Source: Bdellovibrionia bacterium
Lineage (GTDB): Bacteria > Bdellovibrionota > Bdellovibrionia > Bdellovibrionales > JAGQZY01
Direction: 5' to 3'
DNA length: 64,000 nt
Assembly: GCA_030424715.1 (NCBI GenBank)
Contig: JAUHWH010000001.1
Coordinates: forward strand, 434,001 to 498,000
Below, in pieces: positions 23,951 to 28,759 of this stretch. Position numbers and translations under genes: made by a program. Numbering within the stretch: position 1 is the stretch's first letter; each line of letters starts with the position of its first letter. Under the pieces are notes generated by a model, which worked only from the letters and a program-made list of their open reading frames with translations, had not been told where the DNA came from and did not search any database.

Positions 23951-25078
23951 ATGTTGTCCATGCGCGAAATTATTGGCCAACAAATGATTATGGGATTATC
24001 GGGTGAGGAACTCACGCAAGAGGAGTCCCAGTTTATTGTGGAAAACAATATTGGCGGGATTATTCTGTTCGATAGAAATTTAAAGTCCGTTGAGCAAATT
24101 CATAAACTCATTACTGACATTCAACAGCTGCGCTATAAACTGCCAGAAAAAACACCACTTTTTATTTCTGTTGATATGGAGGGTGGTCGCGTCCAGCGTT
24201 TGAAAGAGCCTTTCACGAAATGGCCTCCGGTCAAAAACCTAGGCGATATTGATTCATCGAATATAACGTTTCAGTTCACACGTTTGATGGGTCGTGAGCT
24301 AAAAGCCATGGGCTTCAACTTAGACTACGCCCCTTGTGTGGACGTATTGATGAACCCAGAAAACGAAGTGATTGGTGACCGGGCATTGAGCACTGACCCG
24401 GAGCTTGTCGCCAAACACTCGTCGGCTATGGTACGCGGCTATATCAAGTCCGATGTTTTGACCTGCGCCAAACACTTTCCTGGTCACGGCTACACCAAAG
24501 TGGACAGTCACTTTGATCTACCGGTGGACGAGCGAACCCTGATCGACCTTGAAAAACAAGGGGACTTGGAGCCTTTTAAAAAGGTCATCAAGGCTCGTGT
24601 CGATATGATCATGACGGCACATATTAAATACCCCAACATCGACCCACAATTTCCGGTGACACTTTCGCCCTTGTTTATTACTCAGTTTTTAAGGGGTGCT
24701 TTACGCTACCGTGGCATAATCATCACCGACGATCTCGACATGAAGGCTTTAACTAAGAACTTTCCTATCGATGACCTGCCGGTTCTCGCTTTGCAAGCTG
24801 GCGCGACGATGCTGCTTTATTGCAACGAACCGAAGTCTCCTCTAAAAGCGGTAAAAAACATCGCCAAAGCCATCAGCGACGGTCAACTGGATCAAGACGT
24901 GCTCCGCGCCAATCACGACCTCATCATTAAGACAAAAATAAAAAAATTGAAAAACCCCATCGAACCCTTCTCTCTAGAAAAAGCCCAACAGATCATTGGA
25001 CATCAAGAGCACAAGGATTTCGCACAAGCTGTGGGTGAGCAAAAAGTAGACGCCTACCTTAACACTCCCCAAAACTAG
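23951..25078 (+). CDS. nagZ: Beta-N-acetylhexosaminidase NagZ (GH3)
   Basis: 375 residues; removes GlcNAc from anhydro-muropeptides during cell-wall recycling. GH3 signatures: FISVDMEGGRVQRL (about 71-84), CAKHFPGHGYTKVDSHFDLP (about 172-191, with the His-Asp-Ser-His loop peculiar to NagZ) and GIIITDDLDMKAL (about 255-267), where D260 is the expected nucleophile. No signal peptide, so cytoplasmic, as in most NagZ. Two starts are possible: ATG 23951 or ATG 23960 (MREIIGQQ). Neither has a good ribosome binding site. Confidence 0.92.
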   Translation: MLSMREIIGQQMIMGLSGEELTQEESQFIVENNIGGIILFDRNLKSVEQIHKLITDIQQLRYKLPEKTPLFISVDMEGGRVQRLKEPFTKWPPVKNLGDIDSSNITFQFTRLMGRELKAMGFNLDYAPCVDVLMNPENEVIGDRALSTDPELVAKHSSAMVRGYIKSDVLTCAKHFPGHGYTKVDSHFDLPVDERTLIDLEKQGDLEPFKKVIKARVDMIMTAHIKYPNIDPQFPVTLSPLFITQFLRGALRYRGIIITDDLDMKALTKNFPIDDLPVLALQAGATMLLYCNEPKSPLKAVKNIAKAISDGQLDQDVLRANHDLIIKTKIKKLKNPIEPFSLEKAQQIIGHQEHKDFAQAVGEQKVDAYLNTPQN

Positions 25079-25081
25079 ATA

Positions 25082-26011
25082 TCACTGAAGCGAAAAAATC
25101 TGCCGACATAAGTGAGCCCCACGAAGTGTGGACCCCTTTTTATACCGTGCCATCATCAAACGAAAAGGCAGGTCCCACCTCATCTTTTCTCTGAAGCTCT
25201 CTACCAAAGCGGCGTAGGTGGTTGGATTCTGGATCAGTCGCTCTAAGATTTCTGCTTCAGCAGCGGGATGAAAGCCGGCAAACAGACGGGACCGCTGCAC
25301 CTGATAAAAAGAAATCACATCCTCCACAGTGCGAACTCGTGGCGCCACATACTCTGACTCCGTCGAAGAGGGTGTGAAACTGGGATATTTACGAAACAAG
25401 TCAAACTCTTGATTCGCAAAACGGTTCAGCATAAGAAAGTTTGTACGCAGAGACGCCACCCCGTGAGTTTTTAAGCGTTCAGCGACAAAGATATCATCAA
25501 CAGGAATAGCCGCCGCCTCCACCACTCGCCTTGGATCTCTCTCCTCGATGAACGAACGGACAATTTCTAAAGCGTCTAGCAAGCCACCCCCCGTCGCGCT
25601 GTAATCAATCAGCAATATTTTTTTGTTTCCTAAAACAGAGCGGGGTAGAAAATGTTTTAGATGTTGCGACAAGTTTGCCAGAAAGTTCTCGCGACCCACT
25701 CGACTCCGCTCACTTACGACGCGTGCGGCCTTCGTGTTTCGCAACGGCAAGTGAACCACAGCCTGGGGCCCTAAAGCCGCCTCAATAAGAGCGAGGATGG
25801 GTGTGGGGCTCCCTCCCACCCCGATGTAAATATACTGATCAGGGGGGAAAGATTTTACAATCTGTTTCACCAAGCCCCTAGAACCATAGTAATCCGTCCA
25901 CGAGCTAGCTCTAGCTTGGTTGTGAGCGACTAAAAAACAGAAAAAAAAGACAAAGATACCAATGGAGCGCACCCGCCTATATTCAGCATGATTCATGCCA
26001 AAGAGGCCCAT
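25082..26011 (-). CDS. Exported protein with a phosphoribosyltransferase-like motif
   Basis: 309 residues. A membrane/signal segment lies at about 17-35 (IGIFVFFFCFLVAHNQARA). The exported part has QYIYIGVGGSPTPILALIEAAL at about 58-80 and KKILLIDYSATGGGLLDALEIV at about 128-150. The second resembles the PRPP-binding loop of type I phosphoribosyltransferases (hydrophobic strand, acidic residue, then T/S-x-G-G-T/G), but with one Asp where the family usually has two acidic residues. An exported enzyme of this fold would be odd, because PRPP is cytoplasmic, so it may use the fold differently. AAGGG lies eight bases before the ATG. It converges with nagZ and diverges from the btuB riboswitch. Confidence 0.6.
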   Translation of the reverse strand: MGLFGMNHAEYRRVRSIGIFVFFFCFLVAHNQARASSWTDYYGSRGLVKQIVKSFPPDQYIYIGVGGSPTPILALIEAALGPQAVVHLPLRNTKAARVVSERSRVGRENFLANLSQHLKHFLPRSVLGNKKILLIDYSATGGGLLDALEIVRSFIEERDPRRVVEAAAIPVDDIFVAERLKTHGVASLRTNFLMLNRFANQEFDLFRKYPSFTPSSTESEYVAPRVRTVEDVISFYQVQRSRLFAGFHPAAEAEILERLIQNPTTYAALVESFREKMRWDLPFRLMMARYKKGSTLRGAHLCRQIFSLQ

Positions 26012-26040: not shown

Positions 26041-26171
26041 GCGTTCTACACCAAGAACTCCAGCGGGGTGAATTCAGTGTAAGTCTGAAACTGTTGCGCA
26101 ACGGTGACTGGCCACAAGCCGGAAGTCCGATCCCCCTTTAGAAGCCGACGATCATTCTCGCCATAAAGGAG
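26041..26171 (+). promoter_or_regulatory. Cobalamin (B12) riboswitch with ribosome-site-sequestering stem
   Basis: The core 26070-26131 follows the B12 riboswitch order: GGTGAATTCAGTGTAAGTCTG, then TGTTGCGCAACGGTGA (the GCGCAACxGT box-equivalent), then ACAAGCCGGAAGTCCGAT (the AGxCxGGAxxxCC end). It sits directly upstream of a TonB-dependent receptor, the classic B12-controlled gene. After the core, CCTTTA (26135-26140) is perfectly complementary to TAAAGG (26164-26169), which overlaps the AAAGGAG ribosome site of the receptor. With B12 bound, this stem would be expected to hide the site and stop translation. Confidence 0.85.
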
Positions 26172-26177
26172 ATCATC

Positions 26178-28001
26178 ATTTTTTTTCTGATTCTCGCATT
26201 TTCCATCTCTTTGATTGAGGCCCAACCGGAACCTCTCGCTCCCATAGAGATCACCAGTCAAAATGCGCTGGTGGCCGAATCGACCCGCTCTGTTCTGTGG
26301 CCGGTTGTTACCTCCACTCCGAGCCCCGTGCTTTTGTTACCTCAAACAGACGATGCCCTGAATAGCTTGAATGGCCTACAAACTCGAACCCAAGGCTCGC
26401 CGACCTTCTCTATTCGAGGGTCGGCGCAAAGTGGACGGGCTCTCGTGCTCTACGATCACATTCCGCTAAATTTTGCCTCGGGGCTGGGGCCACCCCGCAT
26501 CTTTTTACCCAAAGAGACCGTGGCGGAAGTGAGAATTGTAAAGGGCCCGGCCTCGCTCTTTTACGGATCGCAAGCCCTGGCTGGTGCCGTTGATTTTGTT
26601 TCTAAAAAATACGCCCGCCCTGAAATCAATATTTCAATCTCCGACACCAATGAAAGTTTTTTGCCTTGGCGAGAAGGGGGCCTCGCCCACCAATCTTTGC
26701 AGGTCAGCGCCCCCCTTTATTCCAACGATAAGACTCACCTTCAGGTCTCCATGTTTCAAGAGTTCGATGACGGCGCCTTTCCCTACCAAACCGCAACGGC
26801 CAGTGGTGTTCGCGACCCCAATTCTCAAAAGCTCAGGCGCATCGTTTTAAATGGATCCCATCAACTAGAAAACGCCGTTTTTGAATGGAACGGAATCATC
26901 GGCCAAGAAGAATTGACCAGCCCCGGTTCACTGTTGTTTCCTTTGGCGACCGATCAAAAAAATGCGGGAAGACTGGTCTCTGTGTCTTCTCACTGGTTTC
27001 TCTCCGAGCAACACAGTTTGAAGTCCCGAGTCAGTCACATGGATGCCGATGCCGATTTTTTAGAACAAGGGCGAAAATCTTACAACGATCAGACATCAAC
27101 TCTTTTGCAAAACGAATGGATCGTCGATTGGGGTCAACGCAACAAGTTTCAATTTTTCGCCGATGCTTTTTTTCACAAACTAGACAACAGCTTTGCCGGT
27201 GCTGGGCTTGAACAAAACAACTACGAGCTGGGGTCATTCTTAAGCTTATCCTCAGGTACCAATCTAAAGCACCAATTGGGCGGACGCTTCCTCGTGGCAC
27301 AGCAGGTTTTTTTACCCACTGTTGCAACACACTATTTTTTTTCTCAGTATGATAGCTGGGTGAGCTACTCGGAAGGCTTCCGCAACCCCACCCTCACCGA
27401 CCTATTTTCAAACAGTCCGTTTTTTGTTGGCAATCCCAACTTAACGCCCGAGACGTCACAACAGTATGAGCTGGGACTGAAAACCAAAGCATCACACTCG
27501 CCTTGGCAATGGGACCTGCGACTCTTCCACATGGAGTACGGCAATTTTATCGAGTCTTTTGAGCGATCACCCAATGTTTTCTCACGGGTCAACCAGGGCG
27601 CCGGTTACTCACGGGGGCTGGATTGGGAGTCTCGATGGGAACAGCCCCACTACGACCTTCGACTTTCTTACAACTTTTTGGACACCCAAAGCCGGCGTGA
27701 ACAAAGGGCCTTTCGACTTTCTCCACGTCACCAAATCACTTGGAGTGCCACATTGAAAAGAAAGGTCTGGAATTTTCAAATTCAAAACACCCATTGGTAC
27801 AATGTTATCGACCTTAACCAGAACCAAGTGGCTCCCCTGGAAGACTGGCAGCAATGGAATTTCTTGGCCCATATTTTCGTTAATAAAAAACTAAGAATGG
27901 GCATTGGCTTAATTAATGCCTTTAACGAAAACAAAGAGCTGACTCTTAACTACCCAGAACCTCAGAGAAAATACTGGCTGCAGATCCACCAAGAGTTCTA
28001 G
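26178..28001 (+). CDS. btuB: Vitamin B12 TonB-dependent outer-membrane receptor, non-AUG start
   Basis: About 607 residues. It imports cobalamin across the outer membrane with energy from TonB. The plug domain (about 20-140) includes TFSIRGSAQSGRALVLYDHIPLN and VRIVKGPASLFYGSQALAGAVDFVS. The beta-barrel fills the rest and ends in Phe. A B12 riboswitch precedes it and tonB follows. The frame has no ATG, GTG or TTG before TTG 26211, yet the codons before that encode a clear signal peptide core (FFLILAFSISLIEAQ). An in-frame stop lies at 26139. AAAGGAG (26165-26171) points to a start at ATT 26178 (spacing 6) or ATC 26175; ATA 26163 would add a Lys but precedes the ribosome site. I give 26178 as the best guess. 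Confidence 0.85.
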   Translation: MFFLILAFSISLIEAQPEPLAPIEITSQNALVAESTRSVLWPVVTSTPSPVLLLPQTDDALNSLNGLQTRTQGSPTFSIRGSAQSGRALVLYDHIPLNFASGLGPPRIFLPKETVAEVRIVKGPASLFYGSQALAGAVDFVSKKYARPEINISISDTNESFLPWREGGLAHQSLQVSAPLYSNDKTHLQVSMFQEFDDGAFPYQTATASGVRDPNSQKLRRIVLNGSHQLENAVFEWNGIIGQEELTSPGSLLFPLATDQKNAGRLVSVSSHWFLSEQHSLKSRVSHMDADADFLEQGRKSYNDQTSTLLQNEWIVDWGQRNKFQFFADAFFHKLDNSFAGAGLEQNNYELGSFLSLSSGTNLKHQLGGRFLVAQQVFLPTVATHYFFSQYDSWVSYSEGFRNPTLTDLFSNSPFFVGNPNLTPETSQQYELGLKTKASHSPWQWDLRLFHMEYGNFIESFERSPNVFSRVNQGAGYSRGLDWESRWEQPHYDLRLSYNFLDTQSRREQRAFRLSPRHQITWSATLKRKVWNFQIQNTHWYNVIDLNQNQVAPLEDWQQWNFLAHIFVNKKLRMGIGLINAFNENKELTLNYPEPQRKYWLQIHQEF

Positions 28002-28096: not shown

Positions 28097-28759
28097 ATGC
28101 AGCTGACCTCGCCTCTTTTAATCTCAATTTTCATACACCTCGGAGTGGCTTTGGGTGCGGAGCAAGCTTCCAAGTACTTCCGCACCATGAAACCAAAAGA
28201 GCCCACACCGGTTTACTCCGTGGACTTTATCGAAATTGAAAAACCAAAGCTGCCGGTCGCCCCGCCCAAAATGCGCAAACAAAAACGCACACCTGTGAAA
28301 GCCAAACAAAGTCGAACAACCCGAAAGGCACCCGCCCGTCTCACACAAAAACAAAAAAGTCCGGTACAAATTCCTGTGGCCGTGCCGTCTCCAATTGAAA
28401 CCAAACAACCCGACCTTACCACGGTGGATTCTAACTCTCCCGTAAATCCGAAAGACGCACGCAACATGCGCCAAAAAATGGGCAACAAGCCGCCCGGATA
28501 TCCGATGGCCGATCGTATTCGTCGTAAAACAGGTCGGGTTATGGTTTTAGGATATGTGGATGATGCCGGACAAGTCAGTCAGGTTCGTGTCACCGACACG
28601 ACGGGAAGCGATCGCATGAATCGCAATGCCATAAACGCTTTCGCCAGTTATCTTTTTGAAGAGGGGCAAGAGGGATGGGTGGAAATGCCCTTTGAATACG
28701 CCCTAGACGGTCAAGCCAAAACAATGAGTGTTCGCGACCGTCATTTAATCAATCAGTAA
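28097..28759 (+). CDS. tonB: TonB-type energy transducer
   Basis: 220 residues. The N-terminal anchor SPLLISIFIHLGVALGAEQA (about 4-23) carries the His that the ExbB/ExbD complex needs in TonB anchors. A long Pro/Lys-rich periplasmic linker (about 30-125) follows. The C-terminal domain (about 135-210, GRVMVLGYVDDAGQVSQVRVTDTTGSDRMNRNAINAF broken over two strands and a helix) matches TonB_C in layout. It sits just downstream of btuB, so it probably serves that receptor. No exbB/exbD genes are in the window. Confidence 0.8.
   Translation: MQLTSPLLISIFIHLGVALGAEQASKYFRTMKPKEPTPVYSVDFIEIEKPKLPVAPPKMRKQKRTPVKAKQSRTTRKAPARLTQKQKSPVQIPVAVPSPIETKQPDLTTVDSNSPVNPKDARNMRQKMGNKPPGYPMADRIRRKTGRVMVLGYVDDAGQVSQVRVTDTTGSDRMNRNAINAFASYLFEEGQEGWVEMPFEYALDGQAKTMSVRDRHLINQ

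Follow-up and report, generated by a model that had tools for sequence, protein, structure and literature searches.

The window analysed here, a stretch of 64,000 nucleotides (64 kb), carries a btuB-like gene for a TonB-dependent outer-membrane receptor, with what looks like a cobalamin riboswitch immediately upstream of it and a gene for a TonB-family protein downstream. The features to which we refer below are the following.

26065..26136, forward strand: putative cobalamin (AdoCbl-type) riboswitch aptamer core; the match to Rfam RF01482 spans 26070-26135 and is flanked by GGGG/CCCC closing arms
26150..26174, forward strand: predicted hairpin sequestering the Shine-Dalgarno sequence, GAUC.UUCU / AGGAGAUC with loop CGCCAUAA
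26165..26171, forward strand: Shine-Dalgarno sequence AAAGGAG, 7 bp with the 3' end of the organism's own 16S rRNA, CCTCCTTTC
26178..26180, forward strand: ATT, the most likely start codon, aligned with the ATG of an orthologue and with the ATGs of riboswitch leaders, 6 nt after AGGAG
26178..26222, forward strand: predicted signal peptide (M)FFLILAFSISLIEA, from the translation, 15 residues with an n-region without charge
26178..28001, forward strand: btuB-like TonB-dependent outer-membrane receptor, frame unbroken (PF00593, 5.9e-24; PF07715, 2.6e-10)
26179..26186, forward strand: run of 8 T over the start codon, from the sequence a possible site of base-call error
28097..28759, forward strand: TonB-family protein gene, next downstream of btuB (PF03544, 4.5e-8)

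The receptor has both the plug and the TonB-dependent barrel, matches solved BtuB chains at about 1e-9, and aligns end to end with a protein from a genome of the same genus (L004 in genome G001, 45% identity). Its assignment to vitamin B12 needs some care. The model for BtuB, the TonB-dependent vitamin B12 receptor (TIGR01779), gives 81.4 bits (5.3e-23), below its equivalog cut-off of 599.7, and the hemin model TIGR01785 scores the protein above this, at 91 against a cut-off of 317. With both models so far below their cut-offs, the B12 identity rests mainly on the riboswitch, which counts more here than the protein itself, and "btuB-like" is the safe name. On the upstream side, a gene for a 309-aa protein with no match in Pfam (25082-26011, reverse strand) lies between a nagZ-like gene (23951-25078) and btuB. 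No homologue of it was found in the four other genomes of the family, and in the same-genus genome G001 btuB comes directly after the nagZ-like gene, with no riboswitch detected. It seems that an insertion has separated the two in this genome.

An earlier note on this DNA, made from the letters alone, had described a btuB frame without a standard start between TAG 26139 and TTG 26211, and this was confirmed to the nucleotide. Between the in-frame stop TAG (26139-26141) and TTG 26211 lie 23 codons, none of them ATG, GTG or TTG, and in all frames no such triplet occurs at 26107-26210, i.e. between GTG 26104 (frame +1) and TTG 26211. A startless run of 23 codons is not rare alone, having a chance of about 1 in 3, (61/64)^23. 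The first letters of the stretch are KPTIILAIKEIIIFFLILAFSIS, after which the protein reads LIEAQPEPLAPIEI; the frame stays open to 28001. The best 12-residue hydrophobicity of this stop-free stretch (KD 3.29) is equalled by 0.04% of composition-preserving shuffles and matched by 9 of 18,264 stretches of 27 codons sampled from the window, and the orthologues align through it. The startless stretch is coding, not a product of chance. The signal peptide that had been read in it is of the same length and type as those of L004, MTLLILLCTVLGVHG, and of L005 from the same family, MLFIGFLFVGFFVSS.

The riboswitch was absent from the earlier note. A whole-genome search matched the leader to RF01482 with 35.5 bits (E 9.4e-5) over model positions 29-95 of 149; formal membership falls short, because the score does not reach the gathering threshold of 50 for this family (clan CL00101) and the model is only partly covered. 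The core can be aligned with five leaders of the order, as GTGAAT...CTGTYGCGCAACGGT...AGTCCG, and with recognised cobalamin riboswitches in relatives, and it stands directly before a TonB-dependent receptor. By position and alignment, then, the leader looks like a cobalamin riboswitch, and the Shine-Dalgarno sequence is probably part of its expression platform. In related leaders the gene is immediately preceded by a short hairpin whose 3' arm contains the Shine-Dalgarno sequence, and the predicted hairpin here, in the order GAUC-A-UUCU-CGCCAUAA-AGGA-GAUC, matches the position of CCUUA-CGCGCCA-UAAGG-AG in the leader L048. The predicted fold has an energy of -5.3 kcal/mol for 26148-26178 and of -6.7 for the platform as far as the start codon. 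Over longer stretches of the leader the folding energy was no better than that of shuffled sequences (z +0.68 and +1.27), so a stable leader fold was dropped as evidence. Since the thermodynamic support for the hairpin is weak, we infer the switching mechanism from homology. A scan for a sigma-70 promoter found none.

The short cobalamin riboswitches of the order (L045-L057) seemingly fall into two types, one with core CTGTGCCGCAACGG and platform CCCGAGCAGGAG, the other with core CTGTCGCGCAACGG and platform TTACGCG..ATAAGGAG. Core loop and platform loop change together between the types, as would be expected of a kissing contact. Several of these riboswitches (L045, L050, L051 and L054) stand before genes whose products are exported proteins of some 290-300 residues, and not before a TonB-dependent receptor.

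Three comparisons agree in placing the start of the receptor at 26178. First, MAFFT, unprompted, aligned ATT 26178 with the ATG of L004, the orthologue from the same genus. The orthologue begins MTLLILLCTVLGVHG|ETQPLKPIWV; its M is aligned with the I of the ATT, and both signal peptides are 15 residues long and uncharged. A look at orthologues for an ATG at 26163 or 26178 had been proposed earlier, and it is exactly at 26178 that the ATG of L004 was found. Second, the start lies 5-9 nt after the Shine-Dalgarno sequence in nine riboswitch leaders from the order (8 with ATG, one with TTG), and here the ATT follows at 6 nt. In the alignment of leader DNA the AT of this ATT falls on the AT of the ATG in L048, L049, L051 and L054; L048 reads CGCCATAAGGAG-ACCACG-ATG where this gene reads CGCCATAAAGGAG-ATCATC-ATT. 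Two btuB relatives with RF00174 riboswitches, L019 and L024, have AAAGGAG followed after 5 or 7 nt by GTG. Third, the 16S 3' end of the genome reads ...GGATCACCTCCTTTC and pairs with all 7 bases of AAAGGAG, a motif with only 3 copies on the forward strand of the 64 kb. The spacing also agrees with the sampled genes of this genome, which mostly have 5-8 nt between Shine-Dalgarno sequence and start. On these grounds we give a probability of about 0.72 to AUU 26178 as the codon at which translation of the btuB-like receptor begins. The earlier note had left the choice between ATT 26178 and ATC 26175; the orthologue, the leaders, the spacing and the genome's own infC all favour the ATT, and a spacing of 3 nt speaks against the ATC. 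A standard start can be found in the remaining btuB relatives that we examined, and AUU in btuB was seen only in this genome, the nearest relative of the gene being only 45% identical.

The likeness to the AUU start of infC, which had been suggested before, is supported by this genome. The infC gene of this genome reads AAGGAGG-ACCTT-ATT-CGA-AGA and thus shares with btuB the layout of AGGAG, 6 nt and ATT, and its conserved N-terminus is without an ATG, GTG or TTG codon. Its start at ATT suggests that AUU initiation is available in this organism, as it is in E. coli. Most infC genes examined in the order have ATT, ATA or ATC at the start position. Whereas the codon is ATT in this genome, it is apparently ATA in G001 and L082 (the loci include L084, L078 and L066), and within the order it varies among non-AUG codons and is seldom back to AUG. 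For the genome at large, we surveyed starts in 20 stretches and the window (464 kb, about 15% of the genome, 393 ORFs). The receptor gene was the only clear case of a strong Shine-Dalgarno sequence and a near-AUG start without a standard start close by; the one other match, a 202-aa ORF (L098), has a GTG with its own GGAG nearby. Since btuB is the sole clear case in this sample, the genome is not generally lax, and we rejected genome-wide laxness in start choice as an explanation.

The strongest rival to an AUU start is a wrong base. On this view 26178 really carries ATG, a sequence or assembly error bordering the T run having turned it into ATT, and the gene would be an ordinary one. The orthologous position holds ATG, and a single base beside the homopolymer separates the two codons. 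That base prolongs the T run into the start codon, a place at which a base-calling error is plausible. The site is represented by one assembly, and scans of the genome contigs for relatives or another copy found no second sequence of it. However, the assembly has 18 contigs, 100% completeness and 0.66% contamination, the gene is free of frameshifts, and substitution errors in start codons should number well under one per genome. We hold such an error to be less likely than an AUU start, though its chance is sizeable.

A smaller chance, and a slight one, goes to the substitution being real but crippling, with the start codon lost and the receptor turning into a pseudogene. The change from ATG/GTG in one lineage only would fit such a loss, as would the finding that AUU and AUA starts in S. 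aureus reach about 10% of the expression obtained with AUG when the medium is poor (PMC13009471). Yet the frame, the plug, the barrel, the riboswitch core and the strong Shine-Dalgarno sequence are all intact, an argument limited by the fact that a very recent loss would leave no visible decay. Moreover, four matches to B12-binding domains remain in the genome, and thus B12 uptake plausibly still matters to the cell.

It is very improbable that another non-standard codon serves as the start, be it ATC 26175, CTG 26187 or ATA 26163 (MKEIIIFFLILAFS). All three are in frame and would keep most or all of the signal peptide, and ATA would add a lysine. But ATC lies 3 nt and CTG 15 nt from AGGAG, against the 5-8 nt that dominate in this genome. 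ATA 26163, which the earlier note had considered as a former ATG, is upstream of the Shine-Dalgarno sequence and without one of its own, no orthologue starts there, and it sits in the loop of the predicted hairpin; that suggestion is not supported.

We give even less weight to reinitiation, in which a 20-codon leader frame from GTG 26104 to TAA 26166 would be translated and ribosomes would restart at AUU 26178 or nearby. Its TAA abuts the Shine-Dalgarno sequence, 11 nt before the ATT, and a comparable termination-reinitiation has been reported from M. tuberculosis, in a leader with a B12 riboswitch (PMC11260477). Against it, GTG 26104 is inside the aptamer core and without a Shine-Dalgarno sequence, and the aligned cores of L048, L051, L052 and L054 have GTA, not GTG, at that position. 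Of the remaining candidates, a start at TTG 26211 is unlikely, as it has no Shine-Dalgarno sequence and would lose the signal peptide that other homologues have; a frameshift into this frame at the T run was rejected as frames +1 and +2 contain no start at 26107-26210, and read-through of TAG 26139 as the upstream part of the frame lies in the riboswitch core.

Returning to initiation at AUU 26178, the following course of events can be envisioned. When corrinoid is scarce, the platform would be open and the 30S subunit would bind the Shine-Dalgarno sequence through 7 base pairs, which would bring the AUU, 6 nt further on, into the P site. The initiator tRNA would read AUU as fMet, giving (f)MFFLILAFSISLIEA|QPEP..., and the receptor would be exported; when corrinoid is plentiful, the hairpin would hide the Shine-Dalgarno sequence. 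The AUU probably arose from AUG in this lineage by one G-to-T change. Initiation from it is probably weak and IF3-sensitive and under the control of the B12 riboswitch, and lower translation and IF3 sensitivity would then be expected on top of B12 repression. The analysis itself shows the sequence, the riboswitch match, the homologous position of the codon, the pairing of the Shine-Dalgarno sequence and the comparison with infC, whereas AUU use in vivo, the reduced yield, the IF3 sensitivity and the ligand response are what we infer. A further and tentative thought, which we consider rather doubtful, is that the AUU has been selected as a second control layer, where the riboswitch gates the Shine-Dalgarno sequence and the IF3-sensitive start caps the yield and couples the receptor to initiation-factor status.

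To our knowledge, very few natural AUU starts have been proven in bacteria (infC, pcnB and cvfC1). A full-text search of the papers available to us for a riboswitch together with an AUU start codon found none, so that, if our reading is true, this would be the first known case of an AUU start under a riboswitch, as far as that search showed. Gene finders are blind to AUU starts, and the automatic call here would go to TTG 26211, which would leave an outer-membrane receptor without its signal peptide. In a riboswitch leader the Shine-Dalgarno sequence, and hence the start, can be recognised whatever the codon. Scanning riboswitch-controlled genes that lack standard starts would thus be a practical route to further AUU cases.

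The textbook AUU-start gene is infC of E. coli, which encodes IF3 and is autoregulated by it, and in infC the non-AUG start is widespread. Both in E. coli and in this genome, infC resembles btuB in its strong Shine-Dalgarno sequence, in an AUU 6 nt after AGGAG and in the lack of a standard start at the conserved N-terminus. In contrast, btuB encodes an unrelated receptor, and its AUU was seen in this genome only. With regard to riboswitches of the RF01482 and RF00174 families before btuB, the locus shares with them the aptamer core and the Shine-Dalgarno platform before a TonB-dependent receptor, but here the start appears to be AUU and the riboswitch match is partial and below the gathering score. 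The AUU start of pcnB in E. coli limits expression (Binns and Masters 2002, cited in PMC13009471); as far as that citing account goes, pcnB is likewise an ordinary gene with AUU and, unlike btuB, is experimentally proven and has no riboswitch. In S. aureus, cvfC1 (AUU) and ccpN (AUA), the genes behind the 10% figure given above, share a non-AUG start and a strong Shine-Dalgarno sequence with btuB as it is read here. The cvfC1 start is conserved among staphylococci and was mapped by Ribo-Ret (PMC13009471), whereas the AUU of btuB is known from one sequence. The sigR gene of Streptomyces, whose GTC start is repressed by IF3 (PMC5472188), is like btuB a physiological gene in which a non-canonical start may add a layer of control, and differs in the codon and in being experimentally proven. 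Judging from its sequence, the btuB-like gene probably joins infC, pcnB and S. aureus cvfC1 in the small class of AUU-initiated bacterial genes.
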